DNA of 64,000 nucleotides from Bradyrhizobium sp. B124 (lineage in GTDB: Bacteria > Pseudomonadota > Alphaproteobacteria > Rhizobiales > Xanthobacteraceae), in assembly GCF_038967635.1 (NCBI RefSeq), contig NZ_CP152413.1, positions 930,001 to 994,000 on the forward strand, in the 5' to 3' direction. Shown here in pieces: positions 16,281-36,166 of this stretch. A program made the position numbers and the translations under genes. The notes beneath the pieces were generated by a model. It ran no database searches. It saw nothing but the letters and a program-made list of their open reading frames with translations, and was not told where the DNA came from. Every line of letters starts with the position of its first letter. Position 1 is the first letter of the stretch.

Positions 16281-16290
16281 GGGCTGGCCG

Positions 16291-18399: not shown

Positions 18400-18427
18400 C
18401 GGGAGAATCTAGGTCCGTTTTGATACG

Positions 18428-18455
18428 TCATGCCCGGCCTTGTGCCGGGCATCCA
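18428..18455. repeat. Palindromic repeat between recG and sdhE
   Basis: A perfect 9-bp stem atgcccggc/gccgggcat (18430-18452) is followed by ccacgtc and a T run. It lies between divergent genes, so it terminates neither. The sequence matches a common Bradyrhizobium intergenic element whose translation (MPGLVPGIHVF) artificially extends the sdhE frame to 18430. Confidence 0.65.
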
Positions 18456-18618
18456 CGTCTTTTTTTGGAGCCGGCATGGATGGCCGGTCCAGTCTGCAGG
18501 TTCGGCCGTGGCGGCATGCCACTCAGGCGGCGAAAGAGGGCTGACATCGGCCCCGGCCATCGCTATATCAAGCCCGCCCGGCACGTCCGGGCTTTTGGCG
18601 TTTGATGGATTTTGGGAC

Positions 18619-18909
18619 ATGACGGGATCGACACGATCGAGCCACGGGCTCGATGACCGCCGCAAGCGGCTTTTGTTTCGCTGCTGGCATCGCGGCACCC
18701 GGGAGATGGACCTGATCCTCGGCCGCTTTGCCGATTCGACCATCGCCGACCTGTCCGATCAGGAGCTGGGCGAGCTCGAGCATTTGATCGAGGTGCCGGA
18801 CCCCGACCTCTATGCCGCGCTGACCGGCGATAGGGTGCTGGCTGCCGAGCATCAGACCGCGCTGTTTGCCCGCATCAAGGCGTTTAGGGTGGCGGATCCC
18901 AGCGCATGA
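18619..18909 (+). CDS. sdhE: Succinate dehydrogenase flavinylation factor SdhE
   Basis: A 96-residue protein of the SdhE/Sdh5 (DUF339) family, which promotes covalent attachment of FAD to SdhA. The conserved RGTREMDLILGRF (the RGxxE signature) is at residues 27-39, and LIEVPDPDLYAALTG follows. The open frame begins at 18430, but that part is repeat-derived; ATG 18619 gives the family's length. The last four bases overlap the mfd start (ATGA), so the two are translationally coupled, a common sdhE-mfd arrangement in alphaproteobacteria. Confidence 0.93.
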   Translation: MTGSTRSSHGLDDRRKRLLFRCWHRGTREMDLILGRFADSTIADLSDQELGELEHLIEVPDPDLYAALTGDRVLAAEHQTALFARIKAFRVADPSA

Positions 18910-21900
18910 AGCAGCCCATGAAATCCCCGGCCGCGATGCTCGCGCCCGGCCGGGTGCTGACCATCGCCAATGTCGCCGAGGGCGCCGAGGGGCTCGTCAT
19001 CTCCGACCTGGCGCGCGCGATCGCCGCGCAGCCGAAGCGGTCGGCGGTCAGCCTCGCCGTGGTGTGCCGCGACGGCGCCCGGATGCAGCAGCTCGCCCGC
19101 GCGCTGGAATTCTTTGCACCCGATATCGCCGTGATGCAGGTTCCGGCCTGGGATTGCCAGCCCTATGACCGCGTCTCGCCGCATTCCGGCGTTCTGGCGC
19201 AGCGGCTGACTGCGCTGGCGAAGCTGTCGCGCCTTGTGGGCTCCGACAAGCCGCTGATCGTGCTCACGACCGTGAACGCCGCCGTGCAGCGGGTGCCGGC
19301 GCGCGATCAGGTCGCAGCGCAAGCGCTGTCGGTTGCGCCCGGCAACGTGGTGCCGATGGATTCGGTCGTCGCCTGGCTCGAGCACAACGGCTACACCCGT
19401 TCGTCCACGGTGCGCGAACCCGGCGAATACGCGGTGCGCGGCGGCATCCTCGACCTGTTTCCGGCCGGCCTCGACCAGCCGGTGCGGTTCGACTTCTTCG
19501 GCGACTCCCTCGAATCGATCCGCACCTTCGACGCCGAGACCCAGCGCACGCTGCTCGACATGCGCGGGCTCGACCTCGTGCCGGTCTCCGAATTCCAGCT
19601 CACCACCGAGACGATCCGTCGCTTCCGCATGGGCTATGTCGCAGCGTTCGGCGCGCCGGGACGCGACGACCAGCTCTATGAAGCGGTCTCCGAGGGACGG
19701 CGCCATCCCGGCATGGAGCACTGGCTGCCGCTGTTCCAGGAGCGGATGGACACGCTGTTCGACTATCTCGACGGCGCAACGATCGCGATCGAGCCGCAGG
19801 GCGAGGACGCCGCGCGCGAACGCTTCACGCAGATTGCCGATTATTACGACGCACGGCGCGAAGCGCTGGAGCATCCCGGCAGCGGCGCGATCTACAAGCC
19901 GCTGCCGCCGGACAAGCTGTATCTGTCTGAGGCCGAATGGACCAGGCTGCTCGGCGATACGCCGCTGGCGCGGCTGACGCCGTTCGCGGTGCCGGAGGGC
20001 TCACCCGACGTGTTCGATGCCGGCGCGCGGCAGGGCCGCAATTTCGCGCCGGAGCGCGCCGACGGCAATGTCAACGTGTTCGAGGCCGTCGTCGGCCACA
20101 TCGGCGCGCTGCAGTCGCAGCGCAAGAAGGTGATCGTCGCGCTGTGGAGCGAGGGCTCGCGCGACCGCATGGGCGCGATGCTGCGCGACCACAAGCTGCT
20201 CAACACCACCAGCGTCAACACCTGGCGGATCGTGCAGGCGACCCCGCGCAACGAGACCATGCTGGCCGTGCTCGGCATGGAATCCGGTTTCGAGACCGAC
20301 GAATTCGCCGTCATCAGCGAGCAGGACATGCTCGGCGACCGCCTGGTGCGGCCGCGCAAGGCGAGCCGCAAGCTCGACAATTTCATCTCGGAGGTGACGA
20401 GCCTTGCGACCGGCGACCTCGTCGTTCACGTCGAGCACGGCATCGGCCGCTTCGTCGGGCTGCAGACCCTGGAAGTCTCCGGCGCGCCGCATGACTGTCT
20501 CGAGCTGCACTATGCGGCGGAGACCAAGCTGTTCCTGCCGGTCGAGAACATCGAGCTGCTGTCGCGCTATGGCTCCGACAGCGCCAATGTCGAGCTCGAT
20601 CGTCTGGGCGGTGGCGGCTGGCAGGCGCGCAAGGCGAAGCTCAAGAACCGCATCCGCGAGATCGCCGGCGAACTGATCAAGATCGCCGCCGAGCGGCAGC
20701 TGCACGAGGCGCCGAAATTCCCGCTGCAGCCGCATGTCTATGACGAGTTCTGCGCGCGCTTCCCCTATGAGGAGACCGAGGATCAGCTTGGCGCCATCAA
20801 TTCGACCTTGAACGACCTCGAGATCGGCCGCCCGATGGATCGCCTGATCTGCGGCGACGTCGGCTTCGGCAAGACCGAGGTGGCGCTGCGCGCGGCGTTC
20901 GCCGTGGCGCTCGAAGGCAGGCAGGTCGCGGTCGTGGTCCCGACCACGCTGCTGGCGCGTCAGCACTCGCGCACCTTCACCGAGCGCTTCAAAGGTTTCC
21001 CGGTCAACGTCGCGCAGGCGTCGCGGCTGGTCTCGACCAAGGAGTTGAACCAGGTCAAGAAGGGCCTCACCGATGGCAGCGTCGACATCGTCGTCGGTAC
21101 CCATGCGCTGCTCGGCAAGGCCATCAAGTTCAAGGACCTCGGCCTCCTGATCGTCGACGAGGAGCAGCATTTCGGCGTCAGCCACAAGGAGCGGCTGAAG
21201 CAGCTTCGCGCCCAGGTCCATGTGCTGACGCTGTCGGCAACCCCGATCCCGCGCACGCTGCAACTGGCGCTGACCGGCGTGCGCGAGCTCTCGATCATTG
21301 CCTCGCCGCCGGTCGACCGCCTCGCGGTGCGCACCTTCGTCGCGCCGCACGATCCCCTGATGATCCGCGAGGCGCTGCTGCGCGAGCGCTACCGCGGAGG
21401 GCAGGCGTTCTACGTCGTGCCGCGGATCGAGGACCTCGCCGGCGTCAAGGATTTCCTCGACAAGAACGTGCCGGAGATGAAGGTCGCGGTCGCCCACGGC
21501 CAGATGCCGCCGACCGTGATCGAGGACATCATGTCCGCGTTCTACGACGGCAAGTACGACATCCTGCTCTCGACCACGATCGTGGAATCCGGTCTCGACA
21601 TCCCGAACGCCAACACATTGATCGTGCACCGCGCCGACATGTTCGGCCTCGCCCAGCTCTACCAGCTGCGCGGTCGTGTTGGCCGCTCCAAGCTGCGCGC
21701 CTATGCGCTGTTCACCTTGCCGGCGCAGCAGAAGATCACGGCGCAGGCGGAGCGGCGGCTGAAGGTGCTGCAATCGCTGGAAACGCTCGGCGCGGGCTTC
21801 CAGCTCGCCTCGCACGACCTCGACATCCGCGGCGCCGGCAATTTGTTGGGCGAAGAGCAGTCCGGCCACATCAAGGAAGTCGGCTTCGAGCTGTACCAGT

Positions 21901-22424
21901 CGATGCTCGAGGAGGCGATCATCAACCTCAAGGCCGGCGTCGCCGAGCCCGCCGCCGACCGCTGGTCGCCGCAGATCACGATCGGCATGCCGGTCCTGAT
22001 CCCCGAGGACTACGTCAACGACCTCAGCGTGCGGCTGTCGCTCTATCGACGCCTCGCCGATCTCGAGACCGACGACGAGATCGACAGTTTTGCCGCCGAG
22101 ATGCGCGACCGCTTCGGCGTGCTGCCGGACGAGGTGCGTTATCTGTTCAAGGTCGCCGCGATCAAGGCCTATTGCCGCCGGGCCAATGTGGGGAAGGTCG
22201 ATGCCGGCCCGAAGGGCGCGGTGATCGCGTTCCGCGACAACAGCTTTGCGCATCCGGAGCGGTTGGTGACCTTCATCCGCCAGCACGGAAAGGCCGCCAA
22301 GGTGCGGCCCGACATGAAGGTGGTGTTCTTCCAGGAATGGGATACGCCGGAAGAGCGGCTCGCCGGCACCACCGAGATCCTGCGCCAGCTCGCCAATCTC
22401 GCGGAGACCAAAAAGGCTGCGTGA
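18906..22424 (+). CDS. mfd: Transcription-repair coupling factor Mfd
   Basis: An 1172-residue SF2 translocase that removes stalled RNA polymerase and recruits UvrA to lesions. The N-terminal UvrB-like region spans residues 1-450, the RNA-polymerase-interacting CarD-like domain about 490-560 (LVVHVEHGIGRFVGLQTLEV), then the helicase: GDVGFGKTEVALRAAF (Walker A), IVDEEQHFGVSHKE (DEEQ), SATPIPRTLQLAL, LYQLRGRVGRSK. The TRCF C-terminal domain ends in REIL-like LRQLANLAETKKAA. Length is normal. A degraded second copy of the last 50 or so bases of this gene lies 7.4 kb downstream (29798-29847), part of a tandem duplication. Confidence 0.97.
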   Translation: MKQPMKSPAAMLAPGRVLTIANVAEGAEGLVISDLARAIAAQPKRSAVSLAVVCRDGARMQQLARALEFFAPDIAVMQVPAWDCQPYDRVSPHSGVLAQRLTALAKLSRLVGSDKPLIVLTTVNAAVQRVPARDQVAAQALSVAPGNVVPMDSVVAWLEHNGYTRSSTVREPGEYAVRGGILDLFPAGLDQPVRFDFFGDSLESIRTFDAETQRTLLDMRGLDLVPVSEFQLTTETIRRFRMGYVAAFGAPGRDDQLYEAVSEGRRHPGMEHWLPLFQERMDTLFDYLDGATIAIEPQGEDAARERFTQIADYYDARREALEHPGSGAIYKPLPPDKLYLSEAEWTRLLGDTPLARLTPFAVPEGSPDVFDAGARQGRNFAPERADGNVNVFEAVVGHIGALQSQRKKVIVALWSEGSRDRMGAMLRDHKLLNTTSVNTWRIVQATPRNETMLAVLGMESGFETDEFAVISEQDMLGDRLVRPRKASRKLDNFISEVTSLATGDLVVHVEHGIGRFVGLQTLEVSGAPHDCLELHYAAETKLFLPVENIELLSRYGSDSANVELDRLGGGGWQARKAKLKNRIREIAGELIKIAAERQLHEAPKFPLQPHVYDEFCARFPYEETEDQLGAINSTLNDLEIGRPMDRLICGDVGFGKTEVALRAAFAVALEGRQVAVVVPTTLLARQHSRTFTERFKGFPVNVAQASRLVSTKELNQVKKGLTDGSVDIVVGTHALLGKAIKFKDLGLLIVDEEQHFGVSHKERLKQLRAQVHVLTLSATPIPRTLQLALTGVRELSIIASPPVDRLAVRTFVAPHDPLMIREALLRERYRGGQAFYVVPRIEDLAGVKDFLDKNVPEMKVAVAHGQMPPTVIEDIMSAFYDGKYDILLSTTIVESGLDIPNANTLIVHRADMFGLAQLYQLRGRVGRSKLRAYALFTLPAQQKITAQAERRLKVLQSLETLGAGFQLASHDLDIRGAGNLLGEEQSGHIKEVGFELYQSMLEEAIINLKAGVAEPAADRWSPQITIGMPVLIPEDYVNDLSVRLSLYRRLADLETDDEIDSFAAEMRDRFGVLPDEVRYLFKVAAIKAYCRRANVGKVDAGPKGAVIAFRDNSFAHPERLVTFIRQHGKAAKVRPDMKVVFFQEWDTPEERLAGTTEILRQLANLAETKKAA

Positions 22425-22464
22425 GGTTTTGGCCTGCCCGGAGCGGGAGGCTCGGCTCAAAAAG

Positions 22465-22578
22465 TCAGTGATCGAGACCTCGCGCCAAGTGAGTTGGCGA
22501 GGGCCAGCGGATCTTCGCTTCGACTGTCGGGCATCGGCCAGGCTCGGCCGCGGGGCGAGTTGCCGGACAGACTTGTTG
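22465..22578 (+). promoter_or_regulatory. Structured leader, copy 1 (ahead of decayed gene)
   Basis: About 114 bases match 30113-30227, the leader of the second giant gene. A 6-bp hairpin (cgccaa gtgag ttggcg) lies at about 22481-22497 and a longer stem pairs ctgtcgggca with tgccggacag (9 of 10). In the other copy the first stem changes one G-C to a G-U pair, which is consistent with a structured RNA leader. Here it precedes only a gene remnant. Confidence 0.5.
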
Positions 22579-22587
22579 GGAGTTGGA

Positions 22588-22955
22588 ATCGCGATCGACA
22601 CCACGATCGATGGCGTCCGAATGACAGTTGACAGTGGTTCAACCGCAAGCAGCACCACGTCGACAGCAACGGCAAGCTGACCGTGTTCGGCGGCACCACC
22701 AGCGACACCACCATCGATGGTAACGAAGAGTCGGGTGAGGAAATCTATCGCAGCACCGCCATCAATACGACGATCAAGAACGGTTGGCTCCAGTGCGTCT
22801 CAAACGACTGCAACAACAACCTGGCGCCTGCGGCAGCGCAGTCGCGTCCAACACCGCGGTGGAAAGCGGCTCCGAACAGATCGTTGGATTTCCTGGGGCT
22901 GCCACCGCGATCAACACCTTCGTCGAAGGCGGTACGCAGTACATCGGCTCGGAGC
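22588..22955 (+). pseudogene. Decayed 5' fragment of a giant strand-loop-strand repeat protein gene
   Basis: The sequence aligns with 30559-30923 of the second giant gene: shared stretches include acgacgatcaagaacgg, aacagatcgttggattt and ggcggtacgcagtac. It lacks about 300 bases equivalent to that gene's start, carries small indels that break the frame, and is cut off after the cagtac match. No continuous reading frame codes for the repeat protein. It is the remnant of a third paralogue or the original 5' end of the first giant gene. Confidence 0.75.
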
Positions 22956-23317
22956 GGAATTTGCGTACTGGTCTTTACAACCGGCCGCGATGGTGATCGC
23001 CACGTTCGTTGTCAGGGGCAGAGCAGACTTCGCCCAAGGCAAGCTGGAGCGGCGCTGGGATTCTGTTCATCGTTGTATGTTGCTTTGTTCCTGCGATTCC
23101 GGAGCAGCCCCGAAGGGGTACTCGCCAAGGTTTCGTTGACGAGGTTGTCAATCTCGCCTAGCTTTTTCTCACATTTCGAACAGTTTCTTTGTATTTCACT
23201 ACAGGGGTTTTTCGTGAATGCGATTACCGTCGCGCCGGCGATCGCGCTGAAGCGCCCGGCGGACCATTTGCCGGAACATCCCAACGTCATCGTTGATCGT
23301 TCGGCTGACGCCGCGCC
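22956..23317. other. Unassigned sequence between two gene remnants
   Basis: No supported gene. It separates the strand-loop-strand remnant from the heptosyltransferase remnant and matches neither in a way I can see. Short open frames exist on both strands, but they lack ribosome sites and recognisable motifs. It is locally more AT-rich (around 23150-23210). Confidence 0.4.
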
Positions 23318-23696
23318 AGTCATGCTGACTTTTTCATTGGTCTGTCGAGCGGCCTGTCGTGGCTTGCATGGGCGTCAGGAACGCGGGTCATCATGATCAG
23401 CGGGTTCACCCATCCCACCAACGAATTTGTTACGCCTTACCGCATTGTCAATTTTCACGCGTGCAACAGTTTCTGGAACGATCCGCGGATGCGTTTCGAC
23501 CACAAGGATTTCCTGTGGCGTCCGCGGCACGCAAATTCACCGCGACAATTTGAATGCACGCGGCTGATTTACGGCCGATCACGTAAAGCAGGTTATTGAG
23601 CGCATACCAGGATTTTCGGTCGACGCCAACGCGGTGCGCGTAAAGGACGTCGACGCCGACGGGCATCGCTGCCCGAAACCGGCAAATGAATTTTAG
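23318..23696 (+). pseudogene. 3' remnant of a TibC/Aah-type autotransporter O-heptosyltransferase gene
   Basis: Frame from 23318: SHADFFIGLSSGLSWLAWAS, then GFTHPTNEF, TPYRIVNFHACNSFWND, RFDHKDFLWRPRH and PRQFECTRLI, a clear match to the C-terminal part of the strand-loop-strand O-heptosyltransferases. One extra T at 23568-23570 shifts the frame; correcting it continues the protein as TADHVKQVIERIPGF and ends at TAG 23694-23696. A TGA at 23306 blocks the frame upstream, so the N-terminal two thirds are missing. Two of four cysteines of the family's iron finger are lost (CNSF for CNSC, WRPRH for WCPRH). The stop is 20 bases before the first giant repeat gene, as in tibC-tibA and aah-aidA operons. 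Confidence 0.78.
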
Positions 23697-23716
23697 TCTG
23701 GCCTAGAGGCGGAACC

Positions 23717-26700
23717 ATGCAGACGATTTCCAGCGGCGTCACCATTACTGTATCTTCTGGCACGGAATCCGGCGATACCGTCCTGACCGGCGGCACGCTG
23801 ATCATTGAGTCCGCGGGCAGCGCCACTGGAACGACTGTGTCCGGCGGCTCCGAGGTGATTTCGAGCGGTGGTGTCGACAGCGGCGCCACGATCCTGTCCG
23901 GCGGCAGCCAGAATATCTCCAGCGGCGGTCTCGGCGTCTCGGCCACGGTGTCTGCAGGCGGCCTGCTCAACGTTTCCTCGGGCGGTTCGGCGTCGTTCGT
24001 TGCCGTGTCGTCGGGTGGCACGCTGAACGTTACCGGAACGGTGACAAGCCACGTTGAGGTCTTTTCGAGCGGCCTTGTTGTGATCTCTTCCGGCGGCATC
24101 GAGACGGGCGCTCCCGGCAGCGACGAGACGATTGTGTCGGGTGGCACGGTCAGCGTGACCTCGGGCGGCCAGCTCTCCTACTTCACGGTCAGGAGTGGTG
24201 GCCTTGTCACGGCCGACAATGGCGCGACGATCCACGACTTCGGCGTCAGCAGTGGCGGCATCCTCAATCTCGCAGGTTCTCAGACCAGCAACTCGGAGGT
24301 CTTCGCCGGCGGCACCGAGAATGTCTTTTCGGGAGGCAACGCGCAGAACTTCGATGTGTCGGGGGGCACGCTGAACGTGCTCTCCGGCGGCAATGCGCAG
24401 TCCTTTACGGTGTCGGGAGGCTCGCTCAATGTCCTCTCCGGAGGCCAGTCCGAGTTCTTCACCCTGTCGTCCGGAGCCTCGGCCAGCGTCGCAACCGGCG
24501 GCACCGTTCACGATCTGACCATATCGAACGGAGCAACGCTCAGCCTTTTGGGTTCGGCGACGAACTTCGTGTTCGTTGGGGGCGGCGCCACGTTGAACGT
24601 CTCTGCCGGCGGTGCCCTCAGCGGTTCATTGGATCCATCCGCCCTCCCAACGGTCACCGTTGTGGGCACAGTGAATGCATCCGCGGGTGCGTCCGTCAGC
24701 TACGTTGCGGTCAACGGCAACGGCGCCCTGAACTTGCAGGCCGGCGCGTCCGCGCACGACATCAATGTGAATAGCGGTGGCCAATTCAATCTCGCGGGGA
24801 GCACGACCAGTAACATCAACATCCACGACGGTGGCCTGGAAACCGTTTCCTCCGGAGGAGCCGAGAACGGCGCCAATGTCTTCGGCGGCGGTGAGCTCGA
24901 TGTCCTTTCCGGCGGATCGGCAAACGGCACGATGGTCAATGGTGGTCTGCTGAAGCTGTTCTCAGGCGGGACCCTCAGTGGCGTTTCGGTCAATTTCGGC
25001 GCCGTAGAACTGGTCAGCGGAGCGTCCGTTTCGCAGCTTTCCAACACCACTTTTGGTAGCGGTACCGAGCTTGAGGTGGGGCCTGGCGCTGTCGTAAGCG
25101 GCTATTCGGTGGGTAGTGGCCCGATCCTCGAGGTTCTGTCGGGCGGCTCAACCTCCGCCATCACCGTCAGCGCGAATGGAACGGAGATCGTGCTTGCGGG
25201 CGGCACGGCCCTGGGCACCATCGTTGGCAGTGGCGGCTTCATGCAAGTCGGCATTCCGTCGTTCCAGGGATCGGGTGGTTCGGCGGGTGGAACCGCGAGC
25301 AATACGACCGTGGCGGGCGGTCAGCTCGATGTGAACTCCGGTGGCCTCGCGGTGTCCACCACGATTGCCAGCAACGGCGGCGCGCAAGTCACCTCAGGCG
25401 GTGCAGTATCTGGAACGACGATCTCCAACTCCGGTGGCATGACCGTGCTGAGCGGCGGCACGGCGGCCGGCACGACGGTGCTGAGCGGTGGCTACTTCCA
25501 ACTCGGATCGTTCAACGGTAGTCCCGGTTCAGCCGGTGGCAGCGCGACGGGCACTATCCTGTCTGGCGGATTCGAGGCCGTCTTCAGTGGTGGCGCCGAT
25601 TCCGGCGTCACGATTCTGTCGGGTGGCACTCAGGTGGTTTCCTCTGGTGGCGTCACCATTGGCGCCACGATCTCAAGCGGCGGCGTGTTGAATGTGTCGG
25701 CCGGCGGTTCGGCCGCGGCGCAAGTTTCAAGCGGAGGTGTTGAGGATGTTTCGTCTGGCGGCCTGACGTTCAACACTGCGGTCTTCGGCGGCGGCGCCTT
25801 GAATGTTTCCGCCGGCGCGACGGCGCACGACGTCACCCTGTCGGGTGGAACGCTCAATCTTGGCGGCACCGTCACCAGCAACGTTTTCATCTCAAGCGGC
25901 GGCATAGAAAACGTGCTGGTGGGAGGATTGGTCTCGGCATCCTCCAACGGTGTAGGGACGACGGTTTCGGCCGGCGGCATCCTCAACGTGATGGGGACCA
26001 CGTCCAACATGGTGGTGGTGTCCAGCGGCGGCGTCGAGAACGTCTCGTCCGGTGGCGTCATCCAGGGCACCATCAGCGGTGCGGCCAGTGCGGGAACGTT
26101 CATCGCGGCCGGCGGAACGCTCAACCTCCTGGCCGGAGGCTCGGCCAGCATGATCAACGTGTCCGGCACGCTTAACGTGCAGGGCAAGATCACCAGCAAT
26201 GTCACCATTCAGAGCGGCGGCCACGAAATCGTCTCTGCAGGTGGCTCCGTCACCGGCGTCACCGGTTCGGGGACCGTCATTTCCGGACTCGTCGACGTTC
26301 TCTCCGGCGCGTCGTTCGAATATGCGACAGTCTTCAATGGTGGTGACCTGAATGTCTCGTCCGGTGCGATGGCGGACCATATCTCCGTCTCGAGCGGCGG
26401 CATCTTCAACGTTGGCGGCACGGTTCTGAGCAATGTCTCGGTCTTTGCCGGCGGCATCGAGAACGTATTCTCCGGAGGTGTGGTCACCGGTGTCACCGGC
26501 TCCGGAACCGGGATTTCGGGTGGCACCGTCAACGTGTCCTCGGGAGGCGCAATCGACCACACGACCGTCATCAGCGGTGGCGTGCTGAACATTAAATCTG
26601 GAGCCGCGGCGCACGACATCGCGGTGTCGAGCGGTGGTGCGCTCAACGTCGCTGGCGCGGTGACGAGCAACGTCGCGGTCTTTGCCGGAGGCAATGAGAT

Positions 26701-29700
26701 CGTTTCCTCTGGCGGCTCCACGGGGCCGGTCACGATCTCCGGCGGCGTGGTCGAGCTGCGGGCCGGCAGCATCGCGAACGGCGGTATCACCTTCAGCGGT
26801 TCCGGCGGTCAGCTCAAGATCGATGGCACCTCCCTGGCCGGCACGACGATCAGCAGTCTGGTGCTGGGCGACAGCATCGATCTGGCAGGCCTCAATTTCG
26901 TATCGGGTGGGGCGGCGACCTTGCAGGCCGGCAACATCCTGCGCGTTACCGAGGGGGCATCCACCTTCAATCTGCAGCTTGATGCGATACCCGGCGTGCG
27001 GTTCAGCGTCAGCGCGGATTCCGGCACCGGAACGCTGGTCACGACGCGTGCCGATATCGCTCCGGTCACGTCAGCGTCCAACATCCATGCAGGCGCTGGC
27101 CAGACCTCCGTGCTGGCTTCCAGCCTCTTTACGGTGTCGGACGCCGATGGCGATCCGATCACCCAATACGCGTTCTGGGACACCGGCGGCAACGGCCACT
27201 GGGTGGTGAATGGTGTCGCCCAGGCGGCCAATGCCGAGATCGATGTTGCGGCGGCGAACCTGTCGCAGGTGAGCTACGTCTTCGGTCCAAACGGATCGAC
27301 TGATACCCTTCGCGTTCGAGGCAATGACGGCACGGTTTGGGGCGACTGGACTCAATTTACGGCCAAGGCATTTGGCGACAACGCGCCAACCGTGAACGCA
27401 GTCAACGTGACTGCGGCGCACGGCCAGACGTCGATTGCTGCATCGAGCCTGTTCACGGTGAGCGATCTGGACGGCGACACGATGACCCAGTACGCGTTCT
27501 GGGACACCCAAGGTAACGGACATTGGGCCATCAACGGCGTCGTCCAGGCCACCAACGCCGAGATCGATGTTTCGGCGGCGAACCTGTCGCAGGTGAGCTA
27601 CGTGTTCGGCCCCGGCGGTTCGACGCCCGATACGCTCTGGGTGAAGGCCAATGACGGTATCTTGTGGAGCGCCTGGCAGAGCTTCACGGCGTCGCCGGGT
27701 CCCGACACGGCTCCGGTGGTGACGGCACCGAACGTAACCGCCAATCACGGGCAGTTCTCGGTTCTCGCCTCGAGCCTGTTCTCGGTCAGCGATGCCGAGC
27801 ACGACACGATCACCCAGTACGCGTTATGGGACACGCAAGGTAACGGACACTGGGTCGTCAACGGTGTCGTCCAGGCCACCAACGCCGAGATCGATGTTTC
27901 GGCGGCGAACCTGTCGCAGGTGAGCTACGTGTTCGGCCCCGGCGGTTCGACGCCCGATACGCTCTGGGTGAAGGCCAATGACGGCAGCCTATGGAGCGCC
28001 TGGAAGAGCTTCACGGCAACACCGGGCCCCGACACGGCCCCGGTGGTGACGGCACCGAACGTGGCCGCGGTTCACGGGCAGACGTCGGCGCTCGCCTCGA
28101 GCTTGTTCTCGGTCAGCGATGCCGAGCACGACACGATCACCCAATACGCGCTCTGGGACACGCAAGGTAACGGACATTGGGCCATCAACGGCGTCGTGCA
28201 GGCCACCAACGCCGAGATCGATGTTTCCGCGGCGAACCTGTCGCAGGTGAGCTACGTGTTCGGCCCCGGCGGTTCGACGCCCGATACGCTCTGGGTGAGG
28301 GCCAATGACGGCAGCATGTGGGGCGCCTGGCAGAGCTTCACGGCAACACCGGGCCCCGACACGGCCCCGGTGGTGACGGCACCGAACGTGGCCGCGGTTC
28401 ACGGGCAGTTCTCGGCTCTCGCCTCGAGCCTGTTCTCGGTCAGCGATGCCGAGCACGACACGATCACCCAATACGCGCTCTGGGACACGCAAGGTAACGG
28501 ACATTGGGCCATCAACGGCGTCGTGCAGGCCACCAACGCCGAGATCGATGTTTCGGCGGCGAACCTGTCGCAGGTGAGCTACGTGTTCGGCCCCGGCGGT
28601 TCGACGCCCGATACGCTCTGGGTGAGGGCCAATGACGGCAGCATGTGGGGCGCCTGGCAGAGCTTCACGGCAACACCGGGCCCCGACACGGCCCCGGTGG
28701 TGACGGCACCGAACGTGGCCGCGGTTCACGGGCAGACGTCGGCGCTCGCCTCGAGCCTGTTCTCGGTCAGCGATGCCGAGCACGACACGATCACCCAGTA
28801 CGCGTTATGGGACACGCAAGGTAACGGACACTGGGTCGTCAACGGCGTCGTCCAGGCCACCAACGCCGAGATCGATGTTTCCGCGGCGAACCTGTCGCAG
28901 GTGAGCTACGTGTTCGGCCCGACCGGCTCGACGCCCGATACGCTCTGGGTGAAGGCCAATGACGGCAGCATGTGGAGCGCCTGGAAGAGCTTCACGGCAA
29001 CACCGGGGCCCGACCACCTTCCGGTCGTTTCGGCCTCGAACGTGGTGACGGTCTCCGGGCAGACGTTCGCCGCATCGAGCCTGTTCAGCGCCACGGACGC
29101 CGACGGCGATACCATCACGAAATATGCGCTGTGGGATTCCAACTCGAACGGGCACTGGAGCATCAACGGCACATCGCAGCCCGTGAATACCGAGATCGAC
29201 ATCACTGCGGCGCAACTTTCCCAGACGACCTATCAGGCCGGCTCGGGCACGGATCAACTCTGGATCCGGGCCAATGACGGCATTGCGTGGGGAGCCTGGC
29301 AGCCCTTCAACGTGACGGGCGAGAGCGCCACCAATGCCACCATCGCATCGGGCAGCACCCTGGAATTGACCGGAACGTCGAATGCCACCGTGGCGTTCCA
29401 GGGTTCGACGGGGACGCTCAAGCTGGACAATTCCGCGAGCTTTGCCGGAACGGTCGCCGGGATGACCGGTTCGGACGCGATCGATTTCGCGAACATCAAT
29501 TTCGCGAACGTTCACACTCCGAGCTTCAGCGGAGACTCAACGCACGGAACGCTCACGGTGACGGACGGCACCGTCACGGCGAGCATTGTGCTGCTGGGCA
29601 ACTACATGGCCTCGACCTTCACGACCTCAAGTGATGGCCATGGTGGGACCCTGGTTGTCGATCCGCCGGCGATGCAGGTCAGCCAGCTTGCGCAGCCACA

Positions 29701-29710
29701 GCATGCGTGA
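23717..29710 (+). CDS. Giant strand-loop-strand repeat surface/secreted protein 1
   Basis: A 1997-residue Gly/Ser/Thr-rich protein. Residues 1-1010 are strand-loop-strand repeats of about 19-20 residues (forms of TVSSGGTLNVSSGGSA) as in AIDA/TibA passengers, known targets of O-heptosylation. Residues 1012-1115 form a module with LVLGDSIDLAGLNF. Residues 1116-1870 are seven 108-109-residue repeats (ASSLFSVSDAEHDTITQYAL, WDTQGNGHW). The C-terminus 1871-1997 repeats the module (GSDAIDFANINFANVH) and ends ALLGNYMASTF-like and SDGHGGTLVVDPP, as in Bradyrhizobium type I secretion cargo. There is no signal peptide and no autotransporter barrel. The N-terminus lacks the opening segment of paralogue 2. 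Start ATG has gaggcgga upstream. Probably an exported adhesin or matrix protein. Confidence 0.8.
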   Translation: MQTISSGVTITVSSGTESGDTVLTGGTLIIESAGSATGTTVSGGSEVISSGGVDSGATILSGGSQNISSGGLGVSATVSAGGLLNVSSGGSASFVAVSSGGTLNVTGTVTSHVEVFSSGLVVISSGGIETGAPGSDETIVSGGTVSVTSGGQLSYFTVRSGGLVTADNGATIHDFGVSSGGILNLAGSQTSNSEVFAGGTENVFSGGNAQNFDVSGGTLNVLSGGNAQSFTVSGGSLNVLSGGQSEFFTLSSGASASVATGGTVHDLTISNGATLSLLGSATNFVFVGGGATLNVSAGGALSGSLDPSALPTVTVVGTVNASAGASVSYVAVNGNGALNLQAGASAHDINVNSGGQFNLAGSTTSNINIHDGGLETVSSGGAENGANVFGGGELDVLSGGSANGTMVNGGLLKLFSGGTLSGVSVNFGAVELVSGASVSQLSNTTFGSGTELEVGPGAVVSGYSVGSGPILEVLSGGSTSAITVSANGTEIVLAGGTALGTIVGSGGFMQVGIPSFQGSGGSAGGTASNTTVAGGQLDVNSGGLAVSTTIASNGGAQVTSGGAVSGTTISNSGGMTVLSGGTAAGTTVLSGGYFQLGSFNGSPGSAGGSATGTILSGGFEAVFSGGADSGVTILSGGTQVVSSGGVTIGATISSGGVLNVSAGGSAAAQVSSGGVEDVSSGGLTFNTAVFGGGALNVSAGATAHDVTLSGGTLNLGGTVTSNVFISSGGIENVLVGGLVSASSNGVGTTVSAGGILNVMGTTSNMVVVSSGGVENVSSGGVIQGTISGAASAGTFIAAGGTLNLLAGGSASMINVSGTLNVQGKITSNVTIQSGGHEIVSAGGSVTGVTGSGTVISGLVDVLSGASFEYATVFNGGDLNVSSGAMADHISVSSGGIFNVGGTVLSNVSVFAGGIENVFSGGVVTGVTGSGTGISGGTVNVSSGGAIDHTTVISGGVLNIKSGAAAHDIAVSSGGALNVAGAVTSNVAVFAGGNEIVSSGGSTGPVTISGGVVELRAGSIANGGITFSGSGGQLKIDGTSLAGTTISSLVLGDSIDLAGLNFVSGGAATLQAGNILRVTEGASTFNLQLDAIPGVRFSVSADSGTGTLVTTRADIAPVTSASNIHAGAGQTSVLASSLFTVSDADGDPITQYAFWDTGGNGHWVVNGVAQAANAEIDVAAANLSQVSYVFGPNGSTDTLRVRGNDGTVWGDWTQFTAKAFGDNAPTVNAVNVTAAHGQTSIAASSLFTVSDLDGDTMTQYAFWDTQGNGHWAINGVVQATNAEIDVSAANLSQVSYVFGPGGSTPDTLWVKANDGILWSAWQSFTASPGPDTAPVVTAPNVTANHGQFSVLASSLFSVSDAEHDTITQYALWDTQGNGHWVVNGVVQATNAEIDVSAANLSQVSYVFGPGGSTPDTLWVKANDGSLWSAWKSFTATPGPDTAPVVTAPNVAAVHGQTSALASSLFSVSDAEHDTITQYALWDTQGNGHWAINGVVQATNAEIDVSAANLSQVSYVFGPGGSTPDTLWVRANDGSMWGAWQSFTATPGPDTAPVVTAPNVAAVHGQFSALASSLFSVSDAEHDTITQYALWDTQGNGHWAINGVVQATNAEIDVSAANLSQVSYVFGPGGSTPDTLWVRANDGSMWGAWQSFTATPGPDTAPVVTAPNVAAVHGQTSALASSLFSVSDAEHDTITQYALWDTQGNGHWVVNGVVQATNAEIDVSAANLSQVSYVFGPTGSTPDTLWVKANDGSMWSAWKSFTATPGPDHLPVVSASNVVTVSGQTFAASSLFSATDADGDTITKYALWDSNSNGHWSINGTSQPVNTEIDITAAQLSQTTYQAGSGTDQLWIRANDGIAWGAWQPFNVTGESATNATIASGSTLELTGTSNATVAFQGSTGTLKLDNSASFAGTVAGMTGSDAIDFANINFANVHTPSFSGDSTHGTLTVTDGTVTASIVLLGNYMASTFTTSSDGHGGTLVVDPPAMQVSQLAQPQHA
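27062..29326 (+). repeat. Seven tandem 324-327-bp coding repeats, giant gene 1
   Basis: Units begin at 27062, 27386, 27713, 28040, 28367, 28694 and 29021. All but the first spacing (324) are exactly 327 bases. Units 3-6 are nearly identical at DNA level (for example gtgacggcaccgaacgt and gccgagcacgacacgatcac recur), while units 1, 2 and 7 are diverged. The pattern indicates recent unequal crossover in the middle of the array. Confidence 0.92.
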
Positions 29711-30012: not shown

Positions 30013-30112
30013 GATCACGTTTTTAGTTCATACCGGCGATTTGTAATTTTGGATGACGTAGCAACTTGAAGCTGGTTCGCGTCCCGCCAGCATTTCAACT
30101 GCTCTCCAAAAC

Positions 30113-30227
30113 TCAGTGATCAAGACCCCGCGCCAAGTGAGTTGGTGAGGGCTAGCGGGCGTTTGCTTCAACTGTCGGGCGATCGGCCAAACTCGGCCGT
30201 GGGGGCGAGTTGCCGGACAGATCTATT
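30113..30227 (+). promoter_or_regulatory. Structured leader of giant gene 2
   Basis: Copy 2 of the leader seen at 22465-22578, ending 35 bases before the gene 2 start. The first hairpin is cgccaa gtgag ttggtg, with one G-U pair relative to copy 1. The larger stem again brings ctgtcgggc next to gccggacag. Position and stem conservation suggest a 5' UTR element affecting translation or stability of this very long mRNA. Confidence 0.5.
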
Positions 30228-30262
30228 GGATTTCGAGATCAGTTTTTTCGGGGGAGGGGTTG

Positions 30263-33200
30263 ATGAGTGTGAATGTTGCCAGCGGCAGCACCGTTTCTGT
30301 GTCCGATACGCAAAGTGGCAACACGGTTCAGGACGGCGGCACGCTTTATGTGCTGAATGGCGGGACTATCAGCAGCACCCTCGATGTTGGCACCGTCGTT
30401 GTGTCCTCCGGCGGCACCGATGTCGGCGACACCGTATCCCACGACTCAAATGGTGCCGCGCAGCTCTACGTTCTCGGCACCGTGATCAGTGCCGTGATCG
30501 ACGGCGGCAACGCGATCCTCGGCTTCAGCTATGTCCCTTCATACACGACCGGCGTTGGAACCGCGATCAACACCACGATCAGTGGCGGCCGACTGTCAGT
30601 GGACACCGGCTCAACCGCGAGCAACACCACGGTCAGCAGCGGCGGCAGGCTAGACCTGTTCGGCGGCACCGCCAGCAACACCACCGTCAATGGTGGAGGC
30701 GTGGACATCTATGGCGGCACCGCCATCGGTACGACGATCAAGAACGGCGGGCTCGAGTACGTCACAAACGACTACAATAACAACCCTGGCGCCTACGGCA
30801 GTGCAGTCGCATCCAACACCACAGTGATGGGAAGCGGTTCCGAACAGATCGTTGGATTTCTTGGGGCCGCGACCGCGGTCAACACCGTCGTCGACGGCGG
30901 TACGCAGTACCTCGGCTATACCGCCTTCGGAAGCGCCGGTTCTGGTTTCGCAAGCAACACCACCATCACCAACGGTGGAATCCAGTATGTTGCGCCATAC
31001 GGCCTCGCTAATGCGGGCGGCACAGCCGTCAACACGACGGTCACCGGCAGCGGCAGCATCCAATATGTCGGCAGTGGCCAATTCAGCGGCAGCGCAACGG
31101 CAAGCTCCACCACGCTGATCGCGGGCGGTGAGCAGGTCGTCTGGGGCGGCACCGCCAGCAGTACGGTGATCAGCTCCGGCGGTACCGAAATCGTTTCGTC
31201 CGGCGGCATCGCCAGAACCGCGGTGATCAGCGCCGGCGGCACCGAGATCGTGATGGCGGGCGGCACCGCCAGCGCGGCGGTGATCAGCTCCGGTGGCACC
31301 GAAGTCGTTTCGTCCGGCGGCACCGCAAGCGGCATCGTCGTCGATAGCGGCGGGACCCTGATTCTCATTGCTGGCGCCAATGTCACGAACGTGACCAGCA
31401 ACGGCGGCACAGTCGTTATCGAAAGCGCCCCTGTGACCGTAAGCAGCGGCTCGTCCTACACCGTATCGAGCGGCCAAACCGATACCGGTGATACCGTGCT
31501 CAATGGCGGTTCGATGTTCGTTGCCTCCGGCGGGTCGGTCGTCAGCACCACCGTCAGCAGCGGCGGGCTTCTGACCATCAGCAAGGGCGGCAGCGACACC
31601 GGCACGACCGTCTCTTCCGGCGGCACCGAAGCGGTCGCGGGCAGCGATACGAATGCCGTCGTTGCAAGCGGCGCGACGATGTTTGTCAGCAGCGGCGGCA
31701 CAGCCAGCGGAACGCTCGTATCCGGGGGAACGCTTGACGTCCTGGCTGGCGGATTTGCCACCGGGACGACGGTCTCAGTGGGCGGCACTCTCAATGTCAC
31801 GGGGACCACGTCCAACACGGTCTTGGTGTTGAGCGGTGGCATCGAGAACGTCTCGTCCGGCGGCGTCATTCAGGGCACCATCAGCGGCACGGCCGGTACC
31901 GGAACGTTCGTTGCAGCCGGTGCGACGCTCAACGTCCTGGCTGGAGGCTCGGCCAGTATGATCAACGTGTCCGGCACGCTCAACGTGCGGGGCAAGATCA
32001 CCAGCAATGTCACCATTCAGAGCGGCGGCCACGAAATCGTCTCTGCGGGCGGCTCCGTCACCGGCGTCACCGGTTCGGGTACCGCAATTTCCGGCGTGGT
32101 CGACGTTCTATCCGGAGGTTCTTTCGAATATGCGACCGTCTTCAGTGGCGGTGACCTGAATGTCTCGTCCGGCGCGACGGCGGACCATATCTCGGTCTCG
32201 AGCGGAGGCCTCTTCAACGTCGGCGGCACGGTCCTGAGCAACGTCGCGGTGTTGGCCGGCGGCATCGAGAACGTGCTCTCGGGAGGTGTCGTTACCGGCG
32301 TGACCAGCTCCGGAACCGGGATTTCGGGCGGCACGGTGAACGTGTCATCGGGAGGCGCAATCGACCACACGACCGTCAGCAGTGGCGGCATGTTGAATAT
32401 TCTGTCCGGGGCGACTGCCCACCATGTTGCCGTCTCCAGCGGCGGCACGTTCAAAGTGGCTGGCGCAGTGACCAGCAACGTGGCGGTGTTTGCCGGCGGC
32501 ACGGAAATCGTTTCCTCCGGCGGGTCGACTGGTCCGGTGACGATTTCGGGCGGCGTGGTCGAGTTGCTGGCCGGCAGCGTCGCGAGCGGCGGCATCACGT
32601 TTGGCGGCTCCGGCGGGCAGCTCAAGATCGACGGCACGTTGATGCCGTCGACGACCATCAGCGGGCTGGTGCTGGGCGACAGCATCGATCTGGCCGGGGT
32701 GACGTTCTCATCCGGCGGAGCAGTGACGTTGCTCCCGGGCAATATCCTGCAGGTCACGGAGGGCGCTTCCTCCTACGATCTGCAGCTTGATCAGACGCCT
32801 GGCGTGCGGTTCAGCGTCAGCACCGATTCCGGCAGCGGCACACTGGTCACCACGCGTGCCGATATCGCTCCGGTCACGTCAGCGCCCAATGTACAGGCAA
32901 CCGTGGGCGAGAGTTCGGCGGCGGCTTCCAGCCTGTTCACCACCTCGGACGCCGATGGCGATCCCATCACCCAATACGCGTTCTGGGACACCCAAGGTAA
33001 CGGCCACTGGGCCATCAACGGCGTCGTCCAGGCCACCAACGCCGAGATCGATGTTGCGGCGGCTAACCTGTCGCAGGTGAGCTACGTGTTCGGTCCAAGC
33101 GGTTCGAGCGATACCCTTTACGTTCGCGCCAATGACGGCACGGTTTGGGGCGGCTGGACTCAGTTTACGGCAACCGGATTTGTCGACACCGCGCCAACCG

Positions 33201-36166
33201 TGAACGCAGCCAACGTCACTGCGGCGCACGGCCAGACGTCAATTGCCGCATCCAGCCTGTTCACGGTGAGCGATCCGGATCACGACACGATCACCGAATA
33301 CGCCCTCTGGGACACCGGGGGGAGTGGCCACTGGGCGTTGAACGGCGTGGCTCTGCCTGCCAACACCGAGATCGATATTCCCGCGGCGCAGTTGCCGCAA
33401 CTGACCTACGTGTTCGGACCGCCAGGGTCAGCCCCTGATACGCTGTTCATCAAGGCGAACGACGGAACGTTGTGGGGAGCCTGGAAAGCGTTCACGGCGG
33501 GGCCAGGGAGCGATGCTGCTCCGGTTGTGACGGCACCGAACGTCACCGCCAATCACGGGCAGACATCGGCTCTCGCCTCGAACCTGTTCTCGGTCACGGA
33601 CGCTGATGGCGATGCGATCACCCAGTACGCATTCTGGGACACCGGCGGCAGCGGCCATTGGGTGGTAAATGGCGTCGCCCAGGCCGCCAACGTCGAGATC
33701 GATGTTACCGCGGCGAACCTGTCACAAGTGAGCTATGTGTTCGGCCCCGGCGGCCCGACGCCTGATACGCTTTACATACGGGCGAATGACGGAATGCTAT
33801 GGGGAAGCTGGACCGCGTTCACGGCAGCACCTGGCCCTGACACGGCTCCGGTGGTGACGGCACCGAACGTGACCGCCAATCACGGGCAGACGTCGGCGCT
33901 GGCCTCGAGCCTGTTCTCGGTGACAGACGCCGAGCACGATCCGATCACCCAGTACGCGTTCTGGGACACCGGTGGCAACGGCCACTGGGTGGTGAATGGT
34001 GTCGCCCAGGCCGCCAACGTCGAGATCGATGTGTCGGCGGCGAACCTGTCGCAGGTGAGCTACGTATACGGCCCGACCGGCTCGACATCAGATACGCTCT
34101 ATGTGCGGGCCAATGACGGATTGCTGTGGGGAGGCTGGACGGCGTTCTCGGCCACCCCGGGGCCCGACCACGCGCCGGTTGTGACGGCACCGAACGTCAC
34201 CGCCAATCACGGGCAGACATCGGCTCTCGCCTCGAACCTGTTCTCGGTCACGGACGCTGATGGCGATGCGATCACCCAGTACGCATTCTGGGACACCGGC
34301 GGCAGCGGCCATTGGGTGGTAAATGGCGTCGCCCAGGCCGCCAACGTCGAGATCGATGTTACCGCGGCGAACCTGTCACAAGTGAGCTATGTGTTCGGCC
34401 CCGGCGGCCCGACGCCTGATACGCTTTACATACGGGCGAATGACGGAATGCTATGGGGAAGCTGGACCGCGTTCACGGCAGCACCTGGCCCTGACACGGC
34501 TCCGGTGGTGACGGCACCGAACGTGACCGCCAATCACGGGCAGACGTCGGCGCTGGCCTCGAGCCTGTTCTCGGTGACAGACGCCGAGCACGATCCGATC
34601 ACCCAATACGCGTTCTGGGACACCGGCGGCAGTGGTCACTGGGTGGTGAATGGTGTCGCGCAGGCGGCCAATGTCGAGATCGATGTGTCGGCAGCGAACC
34701 TGTCGCAGGTGAGCTACGTGTACGGCCCGACCGGCTCGACATCAGATACGCTGTACGTGCGGGCCAATGACGGCATGCTGTGGGGAGGCTGGACGGCGTT
34801 CACGGCCACACCGGGGCCTGACCACGCTCCGGTTTTGACGGCGCCGAACGTCACCGCCAATCACGGGCAGGCGTCAGCTCTCGCCTCGAGCCTGTTCACG
34901 GCCACGGACGCCGACAACGACACGATCACCCAATACGCATTCTGGGACACCGGCGGCAGCGGCCACTGGGTGGTCAATGGCGTTGCGCAGGCGGCCAATG
35001 TCGAGATCGATGTGTCGGCGGCGAACCTGTCGCAGGTGAGCTACGTATACGGCCCGACCGGCTCGACGCCTGATACGCTCTACGTGCGGGCCAACGACGG
35101 ATTGCTGTGGGGAGGCTGGACGGCGTTCTCGGCCACCCCGGGGCCCGACCACCCTCCGGTCGTTTCGGCATCGAACGCGACCGGAATTCACGACCATTCG
35201 GTCACGGCCTCGAGCCTGTTCACGGTCACGGACGCCGACAACGACACGATCACGCAGTACGCGTTCTGGGACACCGGCGGCAACGGCCACTGGGTGGTCA
35301 ATGGTGTCGCGCAGGCGGCCAACGCCGAGATCGATGTGTCGGCGGCGAACCTGTCGCAGGTCAGTTACGTATTCGGACCCGGCGGCTCGCCGGCGGACAC
35401 GCTCTACGTGCGAGCCAATGACGGCATCACGTGGGGTGCATGGACGGCCTTTACGGCCACCGCCACGAACCAGGCGCCGACCGTCGCGGTCGCCAACGTC
35501 GTGACGGTCTCGGGGCAGATCTTTGCTGCTGCGAACCTCGTCACTGCGACGGACGCCGACGGCGATACCATCACGAAATATGCGCTGTGGGATTCCAACT
35601 CGAACGGGCACTGGAGCATCAACGGCACATCGCAGCCCGTGAATACCGAGATCGACATCACGGCGGCGCAACTTTCCCAGACCACCTATCAGGCCGGCTC
35701 GGGTACGGACCAACTCTGGATCCGGGCCAATGACGGCATTGCGTGGGGGGCTTGGCAGCCCTTCAACGTGACGGGCGAGAGCTCCGGCAGCGCCAACATC
35801 GCAGCGAGCGCCACCCTGGAATTGCCGGGGGCTTCGAGTGCCACCGTGGCGTTCCAGGGTTCAACGGGGACGCTGAAGCTCGACAATTCCGCGAGCTTTA
35901 ACGGAACCGTCGCCGGGATGACCGGTTCGGACGCGATCGATTTCGCGAACATCAATTTCGCGAACGTTCACACTCCGAGCTTCAGCGGAAACGCATCGGG
36001 CGGAACGCTCACGGTGACGGACGGCGCCGTCACGGCGAGCATTATGCTGCTCGGCAACTACATGGCCTCGACCTTCACGACCTTGAGTGACGGCCATGGC
36101 GGGACCCTGGTTGTCGATCCGCCGGCGATGCAGGTCAGCCAGCTGGCGCAGCCTCAGCATGCGTGA
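30263..36166 (+). CDS. Giant strand-loop-strand repeat surface/secreted protein 2
   Basis: A 1967-residue paralogue of the protein at 23717. A unique opening segment (MSVNVASGSTVSVSDTQSGN) leads into strand-loop-strand repeats to about residue 765 (runs such as VISSGGTEVVSSGGTASG), the SIDLAG module to 869, nine 107-109-residue repeats (870-1840), and a C-terminal module almost identical to that of paralogue 1, ending VVDPPAMQVSQLAQPQHA. ATG 30263 follows ggggaggggtt, an excellent ribosome site; the TTG one codon earlier is ignored. There is no signal peptide, barrel or cysteine-rich region. Long tracts are near-identical to paralogue 1 (residues before the array, and the last 200), suggesting gene conversion. 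Likely exported by a type I-like route; the exporter is not in the window. Confidence 0.82.
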   Translation: MSVNVASGSTVSVSDTQSGNTVQDGGTLYVLNGGTISSTLDVGTVVVSSGGTDVGDTVSHDSNGAAQLYVLGTVISAVIDGGNAILGFSYVPSYTTGVGTAINTTISGGRLSVDTGSTASNTTVSSGGRLDLFGGTASNTTVNGGGVDIYGGTAIGTTIKNGGLEYVTNDYNNNPGAYGSAVASNTTVMGSGSEQIVGFLGAATAVNTVVDGGTQYLGYTAFGSAGSGFASNTTITNGGIQYVAPYGLANAGGTAVNTTVTGSGSIQYVGSGQFSGSATASSTTLIAGGEQVVWGGTASSTVISSGGTEIVSSGGIARTAVISAGGTEIVMAGGTASAAVISSGGTEVVSSGGTASGIVVDSGGTLILIAGANVTNVTSNGGTVVIESAPVTVSSGSSYTVSSGQTDTGDTVLNGGSMFVASGGSVVSTTVSSGGLLTISKGGSDTGTTVSSGGTEAVAGSDTNAVVASGATMFVSSGGTASGTLVSGGTLDVLAGGFATGTTVSVGGTLNVTGTTSNTVLVLSGGIENVSSGGVIQGTISGTAGTGTFVAAGATLNVLAGGSASMINVSGTLNVRGKITSNVTIQSGGHEIVSAGGSVTGVTGSGTAISGVVDVLSGGSFEYATVFSGGDLNVSSGATADHISVSSGGLFNVGGTVLSNVAVLAGGIENVLSGGVVTGVTSSGTGISGGTVNVSSGGAIDHTTVSSGGMLNILSGATAHHVAVSSGGTFKVAGAVTSNVAVFAGGTEIVSSGGSTGPVTISGGVVELLAGSVASGGITFGGSGGQLKIDGTLMPSTTISGLVLGDSIDLAGVTFSSGGAVTLLPGNILQVTEGASSYDLQLDQTPGVRFSVSTDSGSGTLVTTRADIAPVTSAPNVQATVGESSAAASSLFTTSDADGDPITQYAFWDTQGNGHWAINGVVQATNAEIDVAAANLSQVSYVFGPSGSSDTLYVRANDGTVWGGWTQFTATGFVDTAPTVNAANVTAAHGQTSIAASSLFTVSDPDHDTITEYALWDTGGSGHWALNGVALPANTEIDIPAAQLPQLTYVFGPPGSAPDTLFIKANDGTLWGAWKAFTAGPGSDAAPVVTAPNVTANHGQTSALASNLFSVTDADGDAITQYAFWDTGGSGHWVVNGVAQAANVEIDVTAANLSQVSYVFGPGGPTPDTLYIRANDGMLWGSWTAFTAAPGPDTAPVVTAPNVTANHGQTSALASSLFSVTDAEHDPITQYAFWDTGGNGHWVVNGVAQAANVEIDVSAANLSQVSYVYGPTGSTSDTLYVRANDGLLWGGWTAFSATPGPDHAPVVTAPNVTANHGQTSALASNLFSVTDADGDAITQYAFWDTGGSGHWVVNGVAQAANVEIDVTAANLSQVSYVFGPGGPTPDTLYIRANDGMLWGSWTAFTAAPGPDTAPVVTAPNVTANHGQTSALASSLFSVTDAEHDPITQYAFWDTGGSGHWVVNGVAQAANVEIDVSAANLSQVSYVYGPTGSTSDTLYVRANDGMLWGGWTAFTATPGPDHAPVLTAPNVTANHGQASALASSLFTATDADNDTITQYAFWDTGGSGHWVVNGVAQAANVEIDVSAANLSQVSYVYGPTGSTPDTLYVRANDGLLWGGWTAFSATPGPDHPPVVSASNATGIHDHSVTASSLFTVTDADNDTITQYAFWDTGGNGHWVVNGVAQAANAEIDVSAANLSQVSYVFGPGGSPADTLYVRANDGITWGAWTAFTATATNQAPTVAVANVVTVSGQIFAAANLVTATDADGDTITKYALWDSNSNGHWSINGTSQPVNTEIDITAAQLSQTTYQAGSGTDQLWIRANDGIAWGAWQPFNVTGESSGSANIAASATLELPGASSATVAFQGSTGTLKLDNSASFNGTVAGMTGSDAIDFANINFANVHTPSFSGNASGGTLTVTDGAVTASIMLLGNYMASTFTTLSDGHGGTLVVDPPAMQVSQLAQPQHA
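32870..35782 (+). repeat. Nine tandem ~327-bp coding repeats with a 654-bp superrepeat, giant gene 2
   Basis: Units start at 32870, 33194, 33521, 33848, 34175, 34502, 34829, 35156 and 35477. Units 3+4 (33521-34174) and 5+6 (34175-34828) are almost identical to each other as pairs but differ within a pair (DADGDAITQY against DAEHDPITQY). The last duplication event therefore copied a two-unit, 654-base block. Confidence 0.92.

Follow-up and report, generated by a model that had tools for sequence, protein, structure and literature searches.

The mfd locus and its giant repeat genes

The region analysed in this study (referred to below as the window) is a stretch of 64,000 nucleotides (930001-994000) from the genome of Bradyrhizobium sp. 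B124, which is assembled as a single contig of 9.17 Mb. The locus of interest is anchored by a gene which we take to be mfd (18906..22424, plus strand, 1172 aa); its counterparts in eight further mfd loci that were retrieved show 97.4-99.1% identity. Downstream, on the same strand, are two giant genes whose products contain strand-loop-strand (SLS) repeats: giant gene 1 (23717..29710, 1997 aa), in which the SLS repeats are followed by repeats of approximately 110 aa, and giant gene 2 (30260..36166, 1968 aa). Both match the SLS profiles TIGR04415 and PF16168 above the cut-off (gene 1: TIGR04415 with E=7e-72, in 22 stretches, and PF16168 with E=7e-16; gene 2: TIGR04415 with E=7e-59).

SLS repeats recognized by these two profiles are a feature shared with the self-associating autotransporters AIDA-I, TibA and Ag43, and the first-pass annotation had envisaged an autotransporter as the partner of the neighbouring enzyme gene. 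This proposal had to be rejected. In contrast to AIDA-I and its relatives, the giant proteins lack the PF03797 barrel, which profile searches found neither in the two whole proteins nor in the last 450 aa of the gene 1 product; TIGR01414 was likewise absent from the last 450 aa of both. Their C-termini instead match a protein encoded at 4.46 Mb of the same chromosome, at a type I secretion locus where an intact copy of the enzyme gene lies beside HlyB and HlyD genes: over the last 250 aa, its end shows 81.6% identity to giant protein 1 and 83.2% to giant protein 2. A C-terminus shared with the product of an HlyB/HlyD locus, together with the missing barrel, points to a type I system as the probable route of export for both giant proteins.

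The distribution of the barrel was also examined in ten C-terminal pieces of 450 aa, picked from complete frames of SLS-like composition, with the window's gene 1 added. PF03797 was present in all four pieces from Burkholderia/Paraburkholderia and in none of the six others (three from Reyranella, two from Bradyrhizobium and that of gene 1), which indicates that the partners of the heptosyltransferase family described below fall into at least two kinds, one with a barrel and one lacking it.

Immediately behind mfd lies what remains of a second giant SLS gene, a dead fragment of its 5' region (22456..22949, plus strand). It is a copy, with an internal deletion, of the 5' region of 30260-36166, and was aligned with the window's own gene 2 as well as with genomes G069 and G197. 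Its DNA is 82-85% identical to positions 30104-30229 and 30551-30917 of the window, and it gives weak TIGR04415 matches in two frames, below the cut-off. At approximately position 22949 this gene-2-like fragment joins the 5' flank of the enzyme gene. Since the fragment is also dead, the enzyme remnant is part of a more extended dead stretch, 22456-23630, situated between mfd and giant gene 1. In Bradyrhizobium altum (L075, 9257-11008) approximately 2.1 kb of extra DNA separates mfd from the dead stretch and carries a 584-aa open frame, for which there is no room in the window.

A decayed heptosyltransferase gene and its relatives

The remainder of the dead stretch is occupied by a decayed gene of a TibC/Aah-family protein O-heptosyltransferase (23214-23630, plus strand), situated directly upstream of giant gene 1. 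The first-pass annotation had recognized such a dead gene, and profile searches bear this out: a 96-aa piece (23309-23596) matches TIGR04414 with 165 bits and E=2.2e-48, over profile positions 279-364 of 374, and the solved structure of TibC (4rb4/4rap) with E=2e-34. A chance similarity to heptosyltransferases is ruled out by the TIGR04414 value (E=2e-48). The score remains below the 200-bit cut-off of TIGR04414 because the remnant is not full length; it is a fragment of a member of this family, and no working member.

The remnant had initially been taken for the C-terminal third of the enzyme. Alignment with the intact paralogue at 4.46 Mb does not permit this view, as the N-terminus is present at the same site: positions 23054-23322 hold 5' flank and N-terminus, and a deletion of 901 bases separates them from the C-terminal part. 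In the DNA comparison, 23054-23303 (flank and N-terminus) is 79% and 23321-23568 (C-terminus) 76% identical to this paralogue. The 5' flank (22950..23213, plus strand) aligns with that of the paralogue and of the copies in G192 and G069, and is probably the promoter region of the decayed gene. The N-terminal remnant (23214..23322) starts with GTG, is 65% identical to the intact paralogue over 43 aa (tblastn) and terminates at the deletion, recognized by alignment with intact relatives, in which a 901-base run of the G069 copy is missing from the window (junction at approximately 23321). As 901 is not divisible by three, the reading frame is broken at this point. The lost bases cover the catalytic lobe and a large part of the N-terminal domain; the equivalent of the catalytic Asp110 falls inside them, and the remnant is devoid of this residue.

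The C-terminal remnant (23321..23568), which carries the TIGR04414 and TibC matches, is 78.6% identical to the intact 4.46-Mb copy. A second frame change occurs near 23570, and the final residues (23568..23630) lie in the other frame. This frame change, also noted earlier, is genuine (it is common to B. altum), but the 42-aa piece beyond it (23568-23693) gave no match to a heptosyltransferase family when searched alone, and its first ~20 residues fit the intact relatives by position only. The loss of two iron-finger cysteines was correctly identified in the first-pass annotation: the first and fourth are kept, while the second and third are replaced by Phe and Arg, leaving two of the four ligands. 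In TibC the iron ligands are Cys339/342/358/370, and every single mutant is inactive (PMC4358343). The order of enzyme gene and repeat gene also stood, but the ancestral stop codon was not the one located 20 bases ahead of the repeat gene; in the intact G069 relative, the ancestral stop is placed approximately 80 bases upstream of the giant gene (counted by eye in the alignment). The remnant resembles TibC of enterotoxigenic Escherichia coli and AAH (TIGR04414) in sequence family, in the enzyme-then-SLS gene order and in the iron-finger region. It differs from them in the absence of the catalytic lobe and of two of the four iron ligands, and in that no autotransporter barrel was found in its partner giant gene.

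The closest relative found was G197 (B. altum Pear77), which is 93% identical to positions 22425-23720 of the window over 1265 of 1296 bases. Both the 901-base deletion and the frame change recur in this separately sequenced genome, whose remnant has additional small deletions of its own and carries the same Arg, but not the Phe, with two codons missing between the first two cysteines. Over 23056-24255 the window diverges from L075 by 0.5-5% in 200-base bins. The DNA search for relatives scored the best two candidates per genome, and may thus miss further places.

Full-length copies of the enzyme gene, followed by an orthologue of giant gene 1 (95% and 93% identical over the first 700 aa, respectively), are present in G069 (contig 56) and G192 (at 6.01 Mb). 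Intact orthologous pairs, which the first-pass annotation had proposed to look for at the same place in related genomes, do exist, but not beside mfd; the mfd loci of G069 and G192, fetched separately, each contain a giant gene resembling gene 2 but lack the enzyme. In G151 the pair adjoins mfd and the enzyme gene is short of 972 bases, and in G170 (contig 4) it is short of 609 bases, in frame, so that a 292-aa frame is left. The window deletion can be neither the source nor the product of these two, since sequence missing on one side is retained on the other, and vice versa. The G151 deletion spans that of G170, and an enlargement would be possible in principle; they are nevertheless taken as separate because of their different surroundings, those of the G170 copy being the same as in the intact G069 copy (93% over 2.6 kb), whereas the G151 copy lies beside mfd. 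The deletions in the window and G197, in G170 and in G151 would represent at least two events, and probably three.

In summary, the enzyme-giant gene 1 unit is found beside mfd in the window's genome (G000), G197 and G151, and elsewhere in G069, G170 and G192. The varied surroundings (L069, L070, L071, L072 and L075) are those of a segment that seems to move as a unit, and the dead gene-2-like fragment joined to its 5' flank in the window suggests that it was inserted into, or duplicated beside, a locus composed of mfd and giant gene 2.

Comparison with its relatives gave dN/dS values for giant gene 1 of 0.20 (G069), 0.28 (G192), 0.29 (G197), 0.33 (G170) and 0.34 (G151), the genes of G069 and G197 being truncated by contig ends. 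Values of 0.20-0.34 indicate purifying selection, i.e. that the gene is kept. Between G192 and G069, both of which have intact enzymes, the value for the giant gene is 0.31. For the C-terminal piece of the enzyme, comparison of the two intact copies gave a dN/dS of 0.053, and comparison of the window with G069 and with G192 gave 0.34 and 0.12, respectively (79-80 codons); a relaxation of selection on this piece of the remnant is only suggested. The N-terminal codons (38-45 codons; 1.31 for the intact pair, 0.41 for the window and G069) give no relaxation contrast.

The intact enzyme and the neighbouring type I secretion genes

The window's genome contains one intact TIGR04414 gene, at 4462906-4464033 on the other strand of the same chromosome. 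Its product scores 655 bits, above the cut-off, over positions 1-374 of 374, and alignment with 4rb4 identifies all four cysteines as well as an Asp at the position of TibC residue 110. It is an intact TIGR04414 heptosyltransferase, with heptose transfer as its predicted activity, and a candidate for the glycosylating partner in trans that the first-pass annotation had suggested for the repeat proteins.

The cluster comprises, in this order, genes for (i) an HlyB-type ABC transporter (TIGR01846, 1024 bits), (ii) HlyD (TIGR01843, 407 bits), both above the cut-off, (iii) the heptosyltransferase and (iv) a 2306-aa SLS protein. Both transporter genes adjoin the enzyme gene in 10 of the 19 fetched stretches, the window excluded, that hold at least part of it (L018, L073, L081, L083, L084, L090, L091, L092, L093 and L094), several of the other nine being stretches that stop at a contig end. 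The best 80 of 190 relatives from named genomes, many of them with flanks truncated by contig ends, were inspected likewise: the flanks of 16 contain both transporter genes, as do those of 10 of the 18 with Bradyrhizobium in the title. In L018, a 1006-aa open frame with repeats of the same ~110-aa kind (16281-19301, other strand) adjoins the HlyB gene, and may possibly encode a further type I substrate.

With its TIGR01846 and TIGR01843 genes next to an intact enzyme and a 2306-aa SLS gene, the 4.46-Mb cluster resembles the HlyB/HlyD type I systems that secrete giant adhesins, but differs from them in including a protein heptosyltransferase gene. The mfd locus differs in another respect: at a threshold of E<=1e-8, the window gave no relatives of the 4.46-Mb HlyB or HlyD. 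Within the titles and abstract openings searched, a type I-linked enzyme of the TIGR04414 family was not described. The pairing of a TibC-family heptosyltransferase with type I secretion is the new element here.

As regards the donor sugar, matches to the HldE nucleotidyltransferase domain (213 bits) and to HldD (398 bits) lie near each other at 2.43 Mb of the window's genome; a search for GmhA (TIGR00441) gave nothing above the cut-off (best score, 22 bits). HldE matches occur in 252 of 265 genomes of the genus, and co-occurrence of HldE with the enzyme is therefore uninformative; the 13 genomes without such a match include G197 (610 contigs), which has the enzyme. TIGR04414 itself was matched in 37 of the 265 genomes, and in 26 of the 195 genomes of an earlier draw. 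The 195-genome survey listed 49 SLS-bearing genomes, of which 29 are without a TIGR04414 match; 20 of the 26 TIGR04414 genomes are also in this list. Most full-length copies in the genus have 430-515 aa. In nine genomes (G065, G145, G160, G166, G178, G202, G213, G251 and G257) the match lies in a frame of 726-748 aa, possibly with a fused domain, and G065, G145, G160 and G166 have no TIGR04415 match in the survey.

Loss of the local enzyme and possible modification of the giant proteins

Our preferred explanation, which we consider rather probable, is that the remnant represents a dead satellite copy, whereas the giant proteins of the window would still be made, exported by a type I system and, if heptosylated, modified in trans by the 4.46-Mb enzyme. 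A TibC/Aah-family enzyme encoded upstream of giant gene 1 would once have been paired with this gene. The satellite gene is dead: it has lost 901 internal bases and two iron-finger cysteines, and its frame is broken at two places. From the similarity of the C-termini we infer that both giant proteins may leave the cell through a type I system, most simply that of the 4.46-Mb locus. Any heptosylation would take place in the cytoplasm before export, carried out by the intact enzyme, which may have made the local copy dispensable. With an intact copy elsewhere on the chromosome, loss of the local one was probably tolerated, and service across substrates is plausible since TibC also acts on a second substrate, AIDA-I (PMC4358343). 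In favour of this explanation are, in addition, the full-length enzyme genes kept elsewhere by genomes with a broken copy, the purifying selection on giant gene 1, the shared C-termini and the presence of HldE and HldD. The SLS genomes without a TIGR04414 match (29 of 49, and also G120, see below) and the low GmhA score count against this explanation.

The same pseudogene would also be expected if enzyme loss had meant loss of the modification, the giant proteins of the window being unheptosylated and functioning bare. We regard this as unlikely, albeit as a serious alternative. It is favoured by the many SLS genomes of the survey without a TIGR04414 match and by G120, in which mfd is followed by a giant gene of the same kind although the genome has no TIGR04414 match; the latter case argues against an absolute need for the enzyme. 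(G173 likewise lacks a TIGR04414 match, and the sequence behind its mfd yielded just a short 5' piece of a giant gene of this type.) The activity of TibC on AIDA-I speaks against bare function, as does the finding that all four genomes with a clearly broken copy (the window's genome, G197, G151 and G170) hold a full-length TIGR04414 gene elsewhere, which in the first three lies beside HlyB/HlyD genes; this count leaves out G183 and G042, whose contigs end inside the gene.

It is rather improbable that the remnant has been retained as a leader or promoter region of giant gene 1, even though the three kinds of deletion (that of the window and G197, that of G170 and that of G151) all spare the 5' end of the enzyme gene and its junction with the giant gene, and divergence between the window and B. 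altum is as low as 1-3% over 22950-23716, compared with a pS of 0.185 for mfd. The low-divergence tract also takes in roughly 500 bases at the start of giant gene 1, and hence a recently exchanged tract fits better than constraint. Moreover, conservation relative to G069 is lower in the flank and N-terminus (84%) than in the 5' part of the giant gene (96%), and the B. altum remnant has suffered further small deletions. Finally, the idea that an intact gene merely looks broken through errors of sequencing or assembly, in favour of which nothing was found, is refuted, even without re-sequencing, by the occurrence of the same 901-base deletion and frame change in the independent genome of B. altum Pear77, and it retains practically no credibility.

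Returning to the explanation by a dead satellite copy, we tentatively propose, as a possibility that we would not yet call probable, a more general model for this genus of harmless soil and root-nodule bacteria. The TibC-family enzyme of Bradyrhizobium might be paired with type I secretion and not with autotransport. A master locus, comprising one intact enzyme and one HlyB/HlyD pair, might serve several giant SLS proteins encoded elsewhere, while satellite loci would repeatedly shed their enzyme by internal deletion. If this is true, the O-heptosylation of SLS adhesins does not depend on autotransporters, and modification in the cytoplasm would precede the export of very large proteins via a type I channel. 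The repeated loss of satellite enzymes would, in turn, suggest that a single enzyme is able to serve several substrates in trans.
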